Below are positions 52,234 through 59,794 of a stretch of 64,000 nt of DNA, piece by piece; position 1 is the first letter of the stretch; each line of letters starts with the position of its first letter. The DNA comes from Williamsia serinedens (GTDB lineage Bacteria > Actinomycetota > Actinomycetes > Mycobacteriales > Mycobacteriaceae): contig NZ_JAMTCG010000007.1 in assembly GCF_024171725.1 (NCBI RefSeq), positions 1 to 64,000 of the forward strand, written 5' to 3'. The notes under the pieces are model-generated. The model was not told where the DNA came from and made no database searches. It worked only from the letters and a program-made list of their open reading frames with translations. The translations under genes were made by a program, and so were the position numbers.

Positions 52234-53025
52234 TCAGGCGCGGGTCCCGACGTCCTCACCGCGCAGGAAGGCGAGCGTGGCCGCGGCGAAGTCGTCGGGG
52301 CGGTCGCGGTGCACACTGTGCCCTGTCGGGATGGCCAGGAAGCGACCATCCGGCAGTGCCCCGGCGAGAGTGCGCAGGTGCCGCGGCGGCAGGAAGCTCT
52401 GGTCGCCTCCGGAGATGACGAGCACGGGTGTGCTCACGCGACGCAGCCCGGCCCACCAGTCCGGGTCCGGCGCGTCGAACTCCGCCTGGACGGTGGGCGC
52501 GAGGCGGGCGTCGAAGCGCATCACCGGACGCGGGTCCCGGATCACGTCGAGGACACCGAGCACCAGCTCACGCGGTGACGAGCGCGGTGTGATGCCCTCC
52601 GCGACATCGGCGGCGTCCCGGGGGGTCGGCGGCACCTCCTCGAGGACGAGACGACCGAACCGTCCCGGGGTCGCCATCGCGGCGCGCAGCGCCACGTGGG
52701 CGCCCAGCGAGTGGGCGACGACGTCGACGGTCTGCGCGTCCGGGAGGTCCTCGACGACGGACAGCAGATCGTCACGAAGCCGATCGAGCTCGTACACGCC
52801 GCGCGAACTCTGCCCGTGGCCGCGTTGGTCGTAGGAGATCACCGGTCGACCGTCGGCCCGGAGCCCCGCGGCCAACCGACGCCAAGTGGTGTGGTCGCCG
52901 CCCATGCCGTGCACGGCGAGCACCGGTGTGCCGGTACCGCCGCGTGACCGTCGGACGGCGAGGTCGATCGGGACGCCGTGGTCCGTCCTCCGCACCCACC
53001 GGACGCCGCTCTCCGGGCCGCTCAC
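52234..53025 (-). CDS. Alpha/beta hydrolase
   Basis: A 263-residue hydrolase. The oxyanion segment is VLAVHGMGGDHTTW, the nucleophile elbow is AHSLGAH near residue 112, the acid is probably in ISGGDQSFLP, and the histidine is in TGHSVHRDRP. The elbow has Ala in place of the first Gly of GxSxG. The GTG at 53025 overlaps the TetR stop by 4 bases, fixing the start and indicating co-translation with the repressor. Confidence 0.88.
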   Translation of the reverse strand: MSGPESGVRWVRRTDHGVPIDLAVRRSRGGTGTPVLAVHGMGGDHTTWRRLAAGLRADGRPVISYDQRGHGQSSRGVYELDRLRDDLLSVVEDLPDAQTVDVVAHSLGAHVALRAAMATPGRFGRLVLEEVPPTPRDAADVAEGITPRSSPRELVLGVLDVIRDPRPVMRFDARLAPTVQAEFDAPDPDWWAGLRRVSTPVLVISGGDQSFLPPRHLRTLAGALPDGRFLAIPTGHSVHRDRPDDFAAATLAFLRGEDVGTRA

Positions 53026-53579
53026 GCCTCCCCGAGCCCGCCCAGCAGGATGTCGACCGCCTCGGCGATCACCCGGTCGTCGGGCAACTCGCCGTACATG
53101 ACGGCGGGACACAGCACGACGCCCGACATCATCTGGACCGCCGCGTCGCGGCGCCGCTCGTCGGTGGTCACCGACAGCAGATGCCGGATGTGGCGTTCGC
53201 CGTCGGCGACGAGCGCCTTGCGGACCTCACCGATCTCGTCGACCGTGGCCCCCTGCTGCGCGAGGGCCATCAGGACCTTGTCGAGGGCGAGTTCCTCGAT
53301 CGCGGTGCGGAAGGCGGTCACCTCCGCGACGAGATCGGCCCGCAGGTCACCGGTGGACTCGGCGTGGGGCATGTCGCCGAGGGACTCCACCGCGATACGC
53401 AACAGATCCGCCCGGGACGGCCAATGCGTGTAGAGCGTCGTCTTCGAGTACCCGGCCACGCGCGCCACATGGGCGTGCGTCACCGCGTCCCATCCCTCCT
53501 CCGCGAGCAGGCGTCGGACGGTACGGGAGACGTCGGCACGTGTGCGTGCCACGCGCGCATCCTCGTTGCTCACCGTCAT
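53022..53579 (-). CDS. TetR-family repressor
   Basis: A 185-residue regulator. The N-terminal helix-turn-helix is VTHAHVARVAGYSKTTLYTHW, and the C-terminal half is helical and ligand-binding. The start ATG 53579 sits just after CCGGAG; an upstream ATG at 53609 would add ten residues. It heads the hydrolase operon and diverges from the MAA cluster, so it may control one or both through palindromes in the shared 305-base interval. Confidence 0.87.
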   Translation of the reverse strand: MTVSNEDARVARTRADVSRTVRRLLAEEGWDAVTHAHVARVAGYSKTTLYTHWPSRADLLRIAVESLGDMPHAESTGDLRADLVAEVTAFRTAIEELALDKVLMALAQQGATVDEIGEVRKALVADGERHIRHLLSVTTDERRRDAAVQMMSGVVLCPAVMYGELPDDRVIAEAVDILLGGLGEA

Positions 53580-53884
53580 CTCCGGTTCGGTCGTGGACCC
53601 CCATGTCACCTGCTGTCACACACGACTCTGCCATCACCTGCGGCCCCGACGCCCGAACGGCCCCGACATTTTTCGGACAGAACTTTTCGTCGAAACGCTA
53701 TTGAACGAAGCGACCGGTACTGTACTGTGAGCACATATGCCTGTGTTGTGAGTGAAACCCACGCGCTCTCAACGTCATTGACGTGTGAGGACTAATTCCC
53801 GACAGTCGCCGGTTCTCACTGGCACCCCGCCCGACGCGAGATCAGACACTTCGCGCGCGCATCACAACCACCGGAAGGCACATC
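53580..53884. promoter_or_regulatory. Divergent regulatory interval (TetR operon / MAA cluster)
   Basis: This 305-base stretch has no gene and a clear drop in GC content between about 53665 and 53760. It contains a palindrome TTTCG-T-CGAAA (53685-53695), a sigma-A-like promoter on the plus strand with TTGAAC (53701-53706), 16 bases, and TACTGT (53723-53728), and a perfect palindrome ACGTCA-T-TGACGT (53772-53784). The two palindromes flank the promoter and could be operators. The MAA leader would be about 150 bases long. Confidence 0.5.
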
Positions 53885-54556
53885 GTGTCCGCAGTCCTGT
53901 TCGGTTCCATCAGCACCCTCGTCGACACCTCGGAGATCCAGCGGCGCGCCTTCAACGAGGCCTTCCGGTCGCACGGGCTGGACTGGGAGTGGTCGCGCGA
54001 CGACTACCGTTCGATGTTGGACAGCAACGGCGGCGCCAACCGCATCGCCGACTACGCCGGGCAGCGCGGCGAGAAGGTCGACGCCGACGCGGTCCACGCC
54101 ACGAAGTCGGAGATCTTCCGGACTCTCCTGCTGCAGGAGGGCGCATCGGCCCGCCCCGGTGTCGTCGAGACCATCAGCACCGCCCGCGAACGCGGGATCA
54201 AGGTCGGCCTCGTCACGACGACGTCCCAGGAGAACGTGGCGGCCGTGCTCTCCGCGCTCGGCCCCGACGTCACCGCGGAGTCGTTCGACATCGTCACCGA
54301 CGTCACCTCCGTCGACTCACCCAAGCCGGACAAGGCCGTCTACGAGTACGCGCTCGCCCAGCTCGGTGAGTCCGCCGACGCCACCGTCGCGATCGAGGAC
54401 AACGTGGGCGGCGTGACCGCGGCCGCGGCCGCCTCGATCCGCTGCGTCGCCTTCCCGAACGAGAACACCGCCGGCACCACGTTCGCCGACGCCCTCGAAC
54501 AGGTCGACGCCCTCGACCCCGCGCACGTGGGTGACCTCGCGTCCGCGGCCGCCTGA
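53885..54556 (+). CDS. HAD-like protein lacking the catalytic aspartates
   Basis: A 223-residue protein of the HAD-IA/beta-phosphoglucomutase type. Motif II (VGLVTTTS), motif III lysine (SPKPDKAVYEYAL) and motif IV acidic residues (VAIEDNVGG) are kept. Motif I, normally DxDGT, reads FGSISTLVDT at residues 6-15, with Gly7 and Ile9 in place of both aspartates. The phosphoryl-transfer nucleophile is therefore absent. GTG start with GGAAGG seven bases upstream. As first gene of the MAA operon it may be a regulatory or scaffolding pseudoenzyme, or bind sedoheptulose 7-phosphate; neither is shown. Confidence 0.8.
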   Translation: MSAVLFGSISTLVDTSEIQRRAFNEAFRSHGLDWEWSRDDYRSMLDSNGGANRIADYAGQRGEKVDADAVHATKSEIFRTLLLQEGASARPGVVETISTARERGIKVGLVTTTSQENVAAVLSALGPDVTAESFDIVTDVTSVDSPKPDKAVYEYALAQLGESADATVAIEDNVGGVTAAAAASIRCVAFPNENTAGTTFADALEQVDALDPAHVGDLASAAA

Positions 54557-54616
54557 CCCGACGACCGACACGACCTCGATCGCAGCTCCGCCGATCGCAG
54601 CAGACCAGGAGAACCC

Positions 54617-55831
54617 ATGAGCAACATGCAGGCCAGCGTGACCGCGACGGACACCTCGTTCCACGTCGAGGGGTACGAGAGGATCGAGTACGACCTCGTC
54701 TACGTCGACGGCGTGTTCGACACGGAGAACCGGCATCTCGCCGACGCCTACACCCCCTACGGACGGTGTCTGATGGTCGTCGACGAGTCGGTCGCGGCCC
54801 TGTACGGCGATCGGTTCCGGGCCTACTTCGCCCACCACGGCATCGACCTGACGGTGCACGAGGTGGCCATCGCCGAGACGGCGAAGTCGCTGGAGACGTT
54901 CGAGCAGATCGTCACCGCGTTCGACGCGTTCGGACTCGTGCGGACCGAGCCGGTGCTGGTCGTCGGTGGCGGGTTGAGCACGGACGTGGCCGGATTCGCC
55001 TGTGCCGCCTACCGTCGCAACACCCCCTACATCCGGATCCCGACCACCCTCATCGGTCTCATCGACGCCAGCGTGTCGATCAAGGTCGCCGTCAACCACG
55101 GCAAGCACAAGAACCGTCTCGGCGCCTACCACGCGTCGCAGCAGGTGCTGCTGGACTTCTCCTTCCTCGCGACCCTGCCGGAGGACCAGGTCCGCAACGG
55201 CATGGCCGAGCTCATCAAGATCTCGGTGGTCGGCAACCGGGAGATCTTCGACCTGCTCGACGAGCACGGACCCGAGCTGCTGCGCACCCGGTTCGGGCAC
55301 CTCGACGGCACTCCCGAGATCCGGGCGATCGGCGATCGCGTCACCTACGCGGCCATCGCGACGATGCTCGAGCTCGAGTCGCCCAACCTGCACGAGATCG
55401 ACCTCGACCGCGTCATCGCGTTCGGTCACACCTGGAGTCCCACACTGGAACTCACGCCGCCGGCGCCGTACTTCCACGGCCACGCGATCAACGTCGACAT
55501 GGCCTACTCCACGACGCTGGCCGAGCAGCGAGGACACATCACGCCCGAGGAGCGCGACCGGGTCCTCGGCGCGATGAGCCGTATCGGACTGGCCCTGGAC
55601 AGCCCGTACTTCACCGGTGAGCTGCTGACCGAGGCCACGGACTCCATCCTGCGCACCCGCGACGGGATCCTCCGCGCCGCCATCCCCAGCCCGATCGGCA
55701 GCTGCGTGTTCCTCAACGACGTGTCCACCGGCGAGCTCGTCGACACCCTCGAGGTGCACCGCAAGATCTGCGCCGAGTTCCCGCGCGGTGGCGAGGGCAC
55801 GGGCATGTTCACCGACCGCAGCGATGCCTGA
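54617..55831 (+). CDS. mysA: Desmethyl-4-deoxygadusol synthase (sugar phosphate cyclase)
   Basis: A 404-residue cyclase of the dehydroquinate synthase superfamily, expected to convert sedoheptulose 7-phosphate to desmethyl-4-deoxygadusol with NAD and a metal ion. Long stretches match cyanobacterial MysA, for example [40 protein letters not shown] and [15 protein letters not shown]. Metal ligands are expected in the conserved Glu of MAELIK and the His of FGHTWSP and HGHAIN. The related 2-epi-5-epi-valiolone synthases are similar, but the following mysB, mysC and mysD favour this reaction. ATG with AGGAG seven bases upstream; two GATCGCAGC direct repeats (54578-54601) precede it. Confidence 0.92.
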
Positions 55832-56684
55832 CGGTCCCTCCGGCGCGCACACCCTCCCCGCACCGCGGCCGGTCACACCGACCACCGTCCTCGCCGCGGA
55901 GTTGATCGAGCTGTGTGATCGTCTCGCCGACGCCGGGGTGGCCGACGACGTGCTCGCGGCGGCGCGTCGATCCCGCGATCTCGCAACGGGTCTCGACGAG
56001 TACGTCGCGGCGTGCACCTCGCCGGAGACGTCGGAGCTCGCCGGGTTGACCCGGCGCACGCAGGGCCACGACTGGGACGCCGACGCGCACACGGTGCCGT
56101 TGGAACAGGAGATGCTGTCCGGTCACGTCGAGGGGCGGTTCCTGGAGTTCCTCGTCCACATGGCGGGCGCGCGCCGGATCCTCGAGCTCGGCATGTTCAC
56201 CGGGTACTCGGCGCTGGCGATGGCGCAGGCGGCCGGTCCGGGCGCCCGCGTGGTGGCGAGCGAGATCGACGCCCGCGTGGCGGCGTTCGCGCAGGAGTCG
56301 TTCGCCGAGGCCGGTGTCGCCGACCGGATCGACGTACTGGTCGGTCCCGCCGACGACACCCTGCGCGAGCTCGCCGGACACGCCGAGCGTGGCGGGATCG
56401 AGCCTTTCGACCTCGTCTTCATCGACGCGGACAAGGCGGGATACGGCCGCTATCTCGATCGTCTGCTCGAGTCGTCGCTGTTGGCGCCGCATGCGGTGAT
56501 CGCGGTCGACAACACCCTGATGCAGGGTCAGCCCTATCGCGACGGCACCCCGGTCACCGAGAACGGTCGCGCGATCGCCGCGTTCAACGCCGCGGTCGCA
56601 GACGACGACCGGGTCGAGCAGGTGCTCGTGCCCATCCGTGACGGGGTCACCCTGATCCGCCGGGCGGGGACGCGGTCGTCGTGA
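55824..56684 (+). CDS. mysB: O-methyltransferase of the MAA pathway
   Basis: A 286-residue caffeoyl-CoA-type (Methyltransf_3) O-methyltransferase. SAM motif I is [16 protein letters not shown], the metal site is in [13 protein letters not shown], and [11 protein letters not shown] follows. In known MAA clusters MysB methylates desmethyl-4-deoxygadusol to 4-deoxygadusol. The ATG at 55824 overlaps the end of mysA by 8 bases (ATGCCTGA); a longer frame upstream only reads through mysA. Confidence 0.9.
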
Positions 56685-57991
56685 CGTCGCTGCGCGAGGC
56701 GAACGCGGCGCGCACCGTGGCGGTGCTCGCCGCCTCGGCGGTGACGGCGGTGATCGACGGGATCGTGGTCGGTGCCGCCCTCGTCGGCGGTCGACGTCCG
56801 GCACCGGCACGTCCGGCCCCGCGGCGCCGCACCGTGCTCGTGACGGGCGGGAAGATGACCAAGTCGCTCGCGCTGGCGCGCGCGTTCCACGCCGCGGGAC
56901 ACCGTGTGGTCCTCGTCGAGTCGGCGAAGTACCGACTGACCGGACACCGGTTCTCGCGTGCGGTCGACGCCTTCCACACCACCCCCGAGATCGGCTCGCC
57001 GGACTACGCCCGTGCGCTCGCCGACATCGTCGACCGGGAACGCGTCGACGTGGTGGTGCCGGTGTCGAGCCCCGCGTCGAGCGTCGTCGAGGCCGCCGCC
57101 CGATCGCTCCTCGACGACCGGTGCGAGGTGCTGCACGGCGACGTCGACACCATCGCGATGCTCGACGACAAGGCCGCGTTCTGCGAACGTGCGGAGAAGC
57201 TGGGGTTGTCGGTGCCGCACTTCGCACGGATCACCCACCCCGCGCAGATCGACGACTTCGACTTCCGACCGGGGCGCGAGTACATCCTCAAACGCATCGC
57301 CTACAACCCGGTGGGGCGCATGGACCTCACGCGTCTGCGGGCCGAGACCCCTGCGGAGAACGCGCGATTCGCGCGATCCCTCTCGATCAGCGACGAGGAT
57401 CCCTGGATCCTGCAGGAGTTCGTCGCCGGCACGGAGTACTGCACCCACGGCACCGTCCGCGACGGACGACTTCAGGTGTGGGCGTGCTGCGAGTCCTCGG
57501 CGTTCCAGATCAACTACGCGATGGTCGACCACCCGCGCATCCGCGAGTGGGTCGAGACCTTCCTCGCGCCGACCGGTCTCACGGGGCAGGCGTCGTTCGA
57601 CTTCATCGAGGCACCCGACGGCGAGGTCTACGCGATCGAGTGCAACCCGCGGACGCACTCGGCCATCACCATGTTCTACGACCACCCCGAACTGGCCGCG
57701 GCCTACCTCGAGGACGGGCACCCGACCATCGTGCCGACGGCGACGTCGAGACCGACGCACTGGATCTACCACGAACTGTGGCGCCTGCTCACCGGACCCG
57801 GCCGGCGGGCGCGATGGGCGAGCATCCGACGCAGCACCGACGCGATCTTCACGCCCGACGACCCCGTGCCGTTCTTCATGGTCCACCACGTCCACATCCC
57901 GTCGCTCCTGCTCGCGAACCTGCGGGCGCGCAGGGGTTGGGCGCGCATCGATCTCAACATCGGCAAGCTGGTCGAGAACGGCGGTGACTGA
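56681..57991 (+). CDS. mysC: ATP-grasp ligase, mycosporine-glycine synthase
   Basis: A 436-residue ligase that should couple glycine to 4-deoxygadusol through a phosphorylated intermediate, giving mycosporine-glycine. The N-terminal hydrophobic helix (VAVLAASAVTAVIDGIVVGA) and the block VTGGKMTKSLALARAFHAAG, then YRLTGHRFSRAVDAF, are characteristic of MysC. ATP-grasp residues lie in YILKRIAYNPVGRMDL, WILQEFVAGTEY and YAIECNPRTHSA. The GTG overlaps the mysB stop by 4 bases. The membrane helix suggests attachment to the inner membrane. Confidence 0.93.
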   Translation: MTSLREANAARTVAVLAASAVTAVIDGIVVGAALVGGRRPAPARPAPRRRTVLVTGGKMTKSLALARAFHAAGHRVVLVESAKYRLTGHRFSRAVDAFHTTPEIGSPDYARALADIVDRERVDVVVPVSSPASSVVEAAARSLLDDRCEVLHGDVDTIAMLDDKAAFCERAEKLGLSVPHFARITHPAQIDDFDFRPGREYILKRIAYNPVGRMDLTRLRAETPAENARFARSLSISDEDPWILQEFVAGTEYCTHGTVRDGRLQVWACCESSAFQINYAMVDHPRIREWVETFLAPTGLTGQASFDFIEAPDGEVYAIECNPRTHSAITMFYDHPELAAAYLEDGHPTIVPTATSRPTHWIYHELWRLLTGPGRRARWASIRRSTDAIFTPDDPVPFFMVHHVHIPSLLLANLRARRGWARIDLNIGKLVENGGD

Positions 57992-57992
57992 C

Positions 57993-59027
57993 ATGCCGCG
58001 TCGTCTGCTGCACCTGGTGGGCTCCCCCGTCGACGAGTTCTTCGCCGACCTGTCGCGGCTCTACGCCGGCGGGTGTCTCGAGGCTCTTGCGGGTGACGAC
58101 CGGTACGAGCACGTCATCGCGCACGTCTCCCCCGACCGCGCGTGGACCTTCCCGACCGACCTCGACCCGGCGACGATCGCCGCCGCCGAACAGCACGACG
58201 TGTCCGCGGCCATCGCCCACATCCGGTCGCTCGACATCGATGCCGTCGTCCCCCAGATGTTCTGCCGTCCCGGCATGACCGCCTACCGGTCGCTGTTCGC
58301 GGTGCTCGGCATCGACGTCGTCGGCAACAGCGCCGAGGTCATGGCCGTCGCCGCCGACAAGGCACAGGCGCGAGCCGTCGTCGCGGCCGCCGGGGTCGCG
58401 GTCCCCGCCGGGGAGGTCGTGACCCGTGGCGACACGCCGCACATCGCACCGCCGCTCGTCGTCAAGCCCGTCGACGCCGACAACTCCGTGGGCGTCACGC
58501 TGGTCACCGACACAGCCGAACTGCCGTCCGCACTCGACGAGGCCTTCGCACACGGCACGTCGGCACTCGTGGAGGAGTTCGTGCCGCTCGGACGAGAGGT
58601 CCGCTGCGGCATCGTCGTCCGCGACGGCGAACTCGTGTGCCTCCCCCTCGAGGAGTACGCGGTCGACGCGGACACCGCGCCGATCCGCACACCGCAGGAC
58701 AAACTGTCGCGCGGTGACGACGGCGACCTGTTCCTGGTGGCGAAAACCGCCGACCGCGCCTGGATCGTCCCCGACGACGACCCCGTGGTCGCCGCCGTGC
58801 ACGACGCGGCGCGGCGGGCCCACACCGCACTCGGGTGTCGGCACTACAGCCTCTTCGACTTCCGCATCGACCCGGACGGCACACCGTTCTTCCTCGAGGC
58901 CGGGCCCTACTGCTCCTTCTCGGCGGGCAGCGTGATCGCCGTGATGGCCGCGGCCGCCGGCATCGACGTCACCACACTCTTCGACACCGTGCTGCACGAA
59001 CTCGACCGCGAGAGGGCCACCCTGTGA
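57993..59027 (+). CDS. mysD: D-Ala-D-Ala ligase-like MAA synthetase
   Basis: A 344-residue ATP-grasp enzyme. The N-terminus RLLHLVGSPVDEFFADLSRL and the segment VVPQMFCRPGMTAYRSLF are diagnostic of MysD, which adds a second amino acid (often serine or threonine) to mycosporine-glycine to give shinorine- or porphyra-type MAAs. ATP-grasp elements include PLVVKPVDADNSVGVTLV and FLEAGPYCSFSAGSV. I chose ATG 57993, one base after the mysC stop; an in-frame GTG at 57984 is an alternative. The acceptor amino acid cannot be predicted safely. Confidence 0.92.
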   Translation: MPRRLLHLVGSPVDEFFADLSRLYAGGCLEALAGDDRYEHVIAHVSPDRAWTFPTDLDPATIAAAEQHDVSAAIAHIRSLDIDAVVPQMFCRPGMTAYRSLFAVLGIDVVGNSAEVMAVAADKAQARAVVAAAGVAVPAGEVVTRGDTPHIAPPLVVKPVDADNSVGVTLVTDTAELPSALDEAFAHGTSALVEEFVPLGREVRCGIVVRDGELVCLPLEEYAVDADTAPIRTPQDKLSRGDDGDLFLVAKTADRAWIVPDDDPVVAAVHDAARRAHTALGCRHYSLFDFRIDPDGTPFFLEAGPYCSFSAGSVIAVMAAAAGIDVTTLFDTVLHELDRERATL

Positions 59028-59794
59028 AAGCCACCCCGATGCACCCGTTCGGCGTACGGGTCACCGACATCACCGTCGGCGCACTGGATCCCGACACCGT
59101 CGACGCCCTGCGGGGGCTGCTCGCCGAGCACGGCGTCGCGGTGTTCCCGGGCCAGGACGTCGACGACGCCGCGTTCCTCGACTTCCTGCACGCGTTCGGC
59201 GAGACCACGTTCACGCAGGGCGAGACGCCGGTGCCGGACTTCCCGGAACTGAACGTGATCTCGAACGTCGGACGCACCACACCGCCGCGATCGCAGTTCC
59301 ACACCGACACCAGCTACGTGGCCCATCCGCCCGCGTACACCGCGCTGCGCGCCGTCGAGGTCCCGGATCAGGGCGGACAGACCCTCTTCGCCGACCAGTA
59401 CCGCGCGTTCGAGACCCTCCCGGACGTGGTCCGCGAGGACCTCACCCAGCGCACGGTCACCCATGTCGTCACCGGCCTCGAGCTCGACGACGACGCCGAG
59501 ACCTCCGCCGACCACCCCCTGGCCGCCCCGCACCCGCGGTCCGGCCGGGTCGCCCTCTACCTCTCGACTCCGCAACGCTGCGCGGCGATCTCGGGTCTGA
59601 GCGCCGAGGAGGCGCAGGACACGATCCTGTCCCTGCTCGAGCACAGCACACGCGACGACAACGTCCTGGCACACGCGTGGTCGCCGGGCGACGTGGTGAT
59701 GTGGGACAACCGCTGCGTGCTGCACCGCGCCGACCACTCGGGGGTCGTCGGGGACCGGGTGATGCACCGCGGGATGGTGCTCGAATCCGTCTGA
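59024..59794 (+). CDS. TauD/TfdA-family Fe(II)/2-oxoglutarate dioxygenase
   Basis: A 256-residue dioxygenase. The facial triad is His93-x-Asp95 (FHTDTSY) and His234 (WDNRCVLHRAD), with Arg249 in HRGMV as the likely 2-oxoglutarate anchor. The GTG overlaps the mysD stop by 4 bases, so it belongs to the MAA operon. Some cyanobacterial clusters use MysH, a phytanoyl-CoA-type dioxygenase, to make palythines. This protein is from a different branch of the superfamily, so it may tailor the MAA in the same or a new way. The reaction is inferred from context only. Confidence 0.87.
   Translation: MKATPMHPFGVRVTDITVGALDPDTVDALRGLLAEHGVAVFPGQDVDDAAFLDFLHAFGETTFTQGETPVPDFPELNVISNVGRTTPPRSQFHTDTSYVAHPPAYTALRAVEVPDQGGQTLFADQYRAFETLPDVVREDLTQRTVTHVVTGLELDDDAETSADHPLAAPHPRSGRVALYLSTPQRCAAISGLSAEEAQDTILSLLEHSTRDDNVLAHAWSPGDVVMWDNRCVLHRADHSGVVGDRVMHRGMVLESV

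Follow-up and report, generated by a model that had tools for sequence, protein, structure and literature searches.

The window examined here, 64,000 nucleotides of the 4.64 Mb genome of Williamsia serinedens (contig NZ_JAMTCG010000007.1, positions 1 to 64,000), contains a cluster that an initial annotation had assigned to the synthesis of mycosporine-like amino acids (MAAs), which are UV sunscreens. That reading stands: judged by family matches and gene order, this is a complete six-gene MAA operon of the actinobacterial type, a kind already known from relatives. Two of its features are ones for which we found no earlier description. The HAD protein encoded by the first gene proves, on alignment with its orthologues, to be a conserved pseudo-phosphatase of CbbY descent that has kept a predicted sugar-phosphate pocket and lost the aspartates of phosphoryl transfer, and a divergent TetR gene with a predicted operator lies upstream of it. 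Our best explanation of the whole, which we consider fairly probable, is a TetR-repressed MAA operon that would make shinorine and then palythines, and whose HAD would be a sugar-phosphate-binding pseudo-phosphatase. The question raised by the conserved HAD shifts accordingly, from which phosphate is removed to what role a dead sugar-phosphate phosphatase plays in a sunscreen pathway.

The label "HAD-like" given to the first gene by the initial annotation turns out to be misleading. The window HAD resembles CbbY in both sequence and fold, yet its motif I reads FGSIS where FDxDG is expected, with G7 and I9 in the places of the two DxD aspartates. G7 is present in all 84 distinct MAA-linked HADs that we aligned and position 9 is I or L in all 84, whereas both positions are D in 9 of 9 CbbY-like references. 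In CbbY itself (xylulose-1,5-bisphosphatase; structures 4uar, 4uat and 4uau) the two motif-I aspartates are accompanied by the next Glu and a His, and the corresponding residues of the MAA HADs are G, I (or L), S and Q. CbbY dephosphorylates a ketose bisphosphate, according to a passage of PMC10212915, and the titles of 4uat and 4uau describe substrate complexes of a D10N mutant. The motif-I aspartates are also absent from three further HADs (L148-L150). We therefore rule out an ordinary phosphatase. Weaker matches from the phylum provide a contrast: 24 of 29 such matches gave loci, motif I is readable in 20 of these and all 20 keep FDxDG, and no mys gene lies in the few kb of any of the 24 loci.

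Other residues of the active site have been retained. T111 (motif II), K147 (motif III), and E171 and D172 (motif IV) each occur in 84/84 distinct HADs, as do R53, K74 and H71, which are phosphate- or sugar-site residues. The residues that make up the new motif are just as invariant (G7, S8, S10, S16 and Q19, all 84/84), and 56 of the 223 positions of the protein are at least 97% conserved over these sequences. We found no description of the aspartate loss in the open-licence literature, outside which most subscription papers lie; the passages of PMC11888242 that concern this protein leave it uncharacterised and mention neither the lost aspartates nor CbbY descent nor a TetR operator. A HAD encoded on a Roseobacter litoralis plasmid (L070:8989-9660, 43% identity) carries the same G7, S8, I9, S16 and Q19 replacements. 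Its gene is flanked by those of a TrkH transporter and an L,D-transpeptidase, and the 18.6 kb examined carry no annotated mys gene, so the family of dead HADs extends beyond MAA clusters.

MysA was found (E 1e-90) in 55 of 401 genomes of the family, covering 7 of 31 genera, and the HAD (profile, E 1e-60) in exactly those 55. With 16 genomes from the order and 3 from the class, the mysA-positive genomes number 74; overall, the HAD is present in 72 of the 74 (family 55/55, order 14/16, class 3/3) and TauD (E 1e-60) in 68. Both genes had initially been set outside the standard pathway as extras, a view that these counts do not bear out, and their conservation in MAA clusters of Actinomycetota, some Pseudomonadota and Bacillota is already reported in passages of a 2025 preprint (PMC11888242). 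The comparison of gene order across Actinobacteria that the initial annotation had suggested supports the MAA reading. In 121 of 121 loci, drawn from two collections with some loci counted in both, the HAD lies directly 5' of mysA on the same strand (gap -9 to 251 bases, median 29), and the same gene set recurs in so many other genomes that chance is far exceeded. TauD falls below threshold in six of the 74 genomes, the two that lack the HAD and four others (G117, G425, G671 and G974) that keep the HAD without an intact TauD, which rules out the HAD as a partner of TauD only.

The core genes are those that the initial annotation had named. Against a library of solved structures, MysA scored 572 bits with 5tpr, 276 with 4p53 and 121 with the next row, 3qbd. 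We take 5tpr to be the demethyl-4-deoxygadusol synthase (DDGS) of Anabaena and 4p53 to be the 2-epi-5-epi-valiolone synthase (EEVS) ValA; the Protein Data Bank labels them "3-dehydroquinate synthase" and "Cyclase", respectively. By these scores MysA is a DDGS-type cyclase and not an EEVS or a 3-dehydroquinate synthase, EEVS being ruled out at 276 bits against 572. MysB, MysC and MysD belong to the families expected of an MAA cluster and their genes adjoin mysA; the Pfam matches of MysC are weak, and it passes the cut-off of its NCBIfam model (422 bits against 406). A Mycobacteriales host had been proposed and is confirmed, the nearest named loci to the window MysA being those of an uncultured Williamsia (97%) and Williamsia deligens DSM 44902 (95%), and mysA (E < 1e-100) is present in 8/8 Williamsia genomes searched, the window genome included.

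From the protein families and from relatives that have been expressed, MysA would cyclise sedoheptulose 7-phosphate (S7P), MysB would methylate the product to 4-deoxygadusol, MysC would add glycine to give mycosporine-glycine and MysD would add serine to give shinorine. Reports on operons of this kind agree with the scheme. MysABC of Rhodococcus fascians D188 yielded mycosporine-glycine in Streptomyces albidoflavus at ~150 mg/L (passages of PMC11284840), and a passage of PMC11888242 cites an unpublished experiment in which the R. fascians operon, HAD and TauD included, was expressed and is reported to have yielded shinorine, palythine and palythine-serine, the source being a 2018 meeting abstract by Osborn and Mahmud (its reference 63).

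Some clusters depart from this arrangement. Five mycobacterial and same-family loci (L036, L038, L048, L083 and L084) hold the HAD, mysA, mysC, mysD and tauD without mysB; a search of two such genomes (G266 and G321) for a methyltransferase at other sites gave best matches of 46-47% over ~138 residues. The mysA of G262 lies in two pieces at the ends of two contigs (L130 and L131) that share 33 residues, most likely through a break in the assembly. Two loci from other actinobacterial classes (L176:7012-12991 and L177:5716-11731) encode a dead HAD together with MysB, MysC, MysD and TauD (47-64%). Their cyclases have ~180-210 extra N-terminal residues (open reading frame starts were set mechanically) and an altered active-site stretch, and score 238 and 259 bits with 5tpr against 185 and 189 with 4p53; judged on these features, some MAA-like clusters use a cyclase of a divergent type.

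The HAD's pocket is largely retained, its chemistry is abolished and its gene is fixed beside one whose product consumes a C7 ketose phosphate, a combination that suggests binding, sensing or delivery. The protein probably binds a sugar phosphate. The ligand would most likely be a ketose phosphate, perhaps the MysA substrate, and the HAD would thereby tune or sense flux into MysA. A more specific proposal, which we put forward tentatively, is that a former CbbY has become a regulator or carrier devoted to binding S7P without hydrolysing it, and links flux through the pentose-phosphate pathway to the making of the sunscreen; if this is true, the Roseobacter plasmid HAD and the clusters with divergent cyclases point to a broader group of pseudo-HADs that sense sugar phosphates. 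Several observations weigh against our explanation. The 84 distinct HADs share ancestry and are not independent. Two of the 74 mysA-positive genomes, presumably Actinosynnema-like, lack both the HAD and TauD; their MysA falls among other actinobacterial MysA in a 34-row quick tree of moderate support, which points to loss of the two genes. The HAD persists without intact TauD and so is not simply its partner, and in L176 and L177 it follows a cyclase whose resemblance to MysA is no more than 37-38%, which makes a role tied strictly to the window type of MysA uncertain. The HAD is also dispensable for core chemistry in another host, where R. fascians mysABC gave mycosporine-glycine (passages of PMC11284840). 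Finally, the ratio of non-synonymous to synonymous substitution rates (dN/dS) of the HAD is 0.59 against a more distant Williamsia (L093), the highest of the six genes, a value in which we place little trust, since synonymous change seems to be compressed in GC-rich DNA.

The same facts bear on two other explanations. The HAD may be a re-purposed enzyme, in which the FGSIS loop forms a new active site for a cyclitol or phosphorylated intermediate and works without an aspartyl-phosphate. A new motif held in 84/84 sequences is what selection on a new function would be expected to produce, and E171, D172 and the residues of the cap have also survived; we nevertheless find this doubtful, given that mycosporine-glycine is made without the HAD in another host and that we know of no step in the MAA pathway that is missing an enzyme. 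Alternatively, the HAD may be a decaying leftover retained by operon linkage, as the loss of catalytic residues, the function of mysABC without it in Streptomyces and the dN/dS of 0.59 would allow. This we regard as highly improbable: comparison with the two closest Williamsia gives dN/dS values of 0.12 and 0.22, the conservation of 56/223 positions spans 84 distinct sequences, the HAD accompanies mysA in 72/74 genomes, and it stays where TauD has been lost. On the first two of these grounds, and despite the contrary value for L093, we rule out that the gene is junk. A pseudo-phosphatase that binds sugar phosphate is the reading we prefer.

Regarding the end product, the initial annotation had left the choice between a shinorine-like and a porphyra-like compound, and MysD narrows it to the former. 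A rule for the MysD omega-loop given in passages of PMC11983340 associates L-A or L-S with shinorine, while porphyra-334 is tied to F-S or F-A. MysD of Nostoc HK-01 has F249 and S257 at the published loop positions, which align with L248 and A256 of the window MysD, the mapping having been made by homology to Nostoc HK-01 MysD and not to the reference MysD of that paper. Since L-A is the shinorine pattern, shinorine is the predicted product of MysD in the Williamsia cluster. A MysD that favours threonine, and hence a cluster that makes porphyra-334, is quite improbable given L248 and A256, even though the same passages report that characterised MysDs give mixtures. For Actinosynnema mirum, a review (PMC10384724) states that cultures showed no MAA, and its table lists the A. 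mirum genes with shinorine made in yeast, in a passage from which the genes used are not evident.

TauD, a predicted oxygenase, would hydroxylate an amino-acid side chain and release it to leave palythine-type products, and it probably takes shinorine on to palythines. Its iron-binding HxD...H triad (H93, D95 and H234) is invariant in a 24-row alignment, where the distal arginine R245 is at least 90% conserved. Passages of PMC11888242 propose a part in palythine formation for the TauD of actinobacterial MAA clusters, and in cyanobacteria palythine formation has been linked to the PhyH-type MysH and the TauD-type MysI, the latter proposed in Nostoc (passages of PMC10510106). It may instead be that the operon ends at plain shinorine and that TauD has a different task, for instance in the supply or breakdown of some other compound. 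The TauD family acts on a wide range of substrates, among solved structures the top match reaches only 100 bits (a phenoxypropionate oxygenase) and the gene falls below threshold in 6/74 genomes. We think this unlikely, because tauD overlaps mysD in the window, is conserved with the cluster in 68/74 genomes and belongs to an operon type reported to yield palythines in R. fascians, and because the MysI proposed for Nostoc is of the same family. No cyanobacterial TauD relative was found among the best 30 of 301 plasmid matches, all of which were general TauD proteins of <40% identity. The position of the gene varies among loci, which have it after mysD, between mysB and mysC, 5' of the HAD or on the opposite strand. 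In L144, L076 and L090 TauD is eroded (G117), truncated (G671) or matched only from residue 86-87 on (G298), whereas matches to the HAD and mysABCD cover most of each gene; the last step has been lost repeatedly in these loci.

Control of the operon is the second feature for which we found no earlier description. The initial annotation was right about the six genes and missed the divergent TetR gene and the operator upstream (Table 1). We surveyed 85 non-redundant regions upstream of the HAD, 33 of which hold a divergent TetR relative. An operator no more than one mismatch away from the consensus is present in 18/33 regions with TetR and 0/52 without, and one with at most two mismatches in 23/33 and 1/52; in 20 mononucleotide shuffles of the 85 regions (1700 in all), at most one mismatch arose once and at most two in 15. 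Of the 23 TetR loci whose operator has at most two mismatches, 13 have TTGAAC in the same position. Ten of the 33 TetR loci are without a good operator match, and the related genomes are not independent. The concentration of matches in TetR regions indicates that TetR and operator travel together, and we conclude from these motif counts that the pair belongs to many of these MAA clusters. The operon is probably repressed by the divergent TetR, in which case the operator offers a means of activating clusters of this type. We found no description of this operator in the open-licence literature, although no search was aimed at the operator itself.

Of the sigma-factor patterns 5' of the HAD, the SigA-, SigH- and SigE-like ones did not clearly exceed shuffles. 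A SigB/F-like pattern did, with 21/86 regions against a mean of 0.7 in mononucleotide shuffles, and a slightly wider form in 13/52 regions without TetR and 9/33 with it; because it is found in both, it is no general alternative to TetR. In 12 TetR-less loci (L011, L015, L018, L020, L021, L027-L030, L032, L089 and L130) a SigB/F-like GGTTTC...GGGGCA stands 93-106 bases before the HAD, which suggests stress-sigma control there. These loci look closely related and so may represent one origin.

The layout proposed initially, six plus-strand genes with tight spacing, was confirmed. All six open reading frames are intact between 53885 and 59794, with the HAD 5' of mysA and tauD within the cluster, as in the actinobacterial HAD-mysABCD-TauD operon. 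The HAD and mysA are separated by 60 bases and mysC and mysD by 1 base, while mysA/mysB overlap by 8 bases and mysB/mysC and mysD/tauD by 4 bases each.

Table 1. Genes and predicted control elements of the MAA operon, with positions in the window
Feature	Position	Strand	Description
TetR-family regulator	53022-53609	-	divergent from operon; TetR_N E 1.7e-10; probable local repressor
-35-like TTGAAC	53701-53706	+	putative promoter, read from sequence
Predicted operator CGGTACTGTACTG	53715-53727	.	palindromic; consensus CAGTAC-N-GTACTG, 1 mismatch; overlaps -10-like TACTGT
-10-like TACTGT	53723-53728	+	putative promoter; 16 bases after TTGAAC
HAD	53885-54556	+	223 aa, GTG start, GGAAGG upstream; Pfam Hydrolase 7e-24; pseudo-phosphatase with HAD fold, descended from CbbY; motif I (FGSIST) lacks both the nucleophile and the general-acid Asp
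mysA	54617-55831	+	404 aa; demethyl-4-deoxygadusol synthase-type sugar phosphate cyclase; Pfam DHQ_synthase 1.7e-30
mysB	55824-56684	+	286 aa; O-methyltransferase; Pfam Methyltransf_3 2.1e-44
mysC	56681-57991	+	436 aa; ATP-grasp ligase, mycosporine-glycine step; NCBIfam NF005315
mysD	57993-59027	+	344 aa; D-Ala-D-Ala ligase-like ATP-grasp; Pfam Dala_Dala_lig_C 1.3e-19
tauD	59024-59794	+	256 aa, GTG start; Fe(II)/2-oxoglutarate oxygenase, predicted palythine-forming; Pfam TauD 4.5e-55

The operon can be placed among known systems by what surrounds its shared core. The Nostoc sp. HK-01 plasmid (L071) has mysABCD in the same order, its products 63, 49, 54 and 53% identical to MysA, MysB, MysC and MysD of the window, with no HAD or TauD match in a 21-kb stretch. 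The same core is described for A. mirum as amir_4256-4259 (a passage of PMC10384724), and the Actinosynnema-like genomes, unlike the window operon, are without the HAD and TauD. The cyanobacterial MysH and MysI are likewise Fe(II)/2-oxoglutarate oxygenases tied to palythines, MysI sharing the TauD family. Also close are the clusters treated in passages of the GATOR-GC preprint (PMC11888242), the Pseudonocardia alni window and the R. fascians D188 operon, which have the same MAA core together with a conserved HAD and TauD; our analysis places a complete, probably palythine-making sunscreen operon of this kind in Williamsia.

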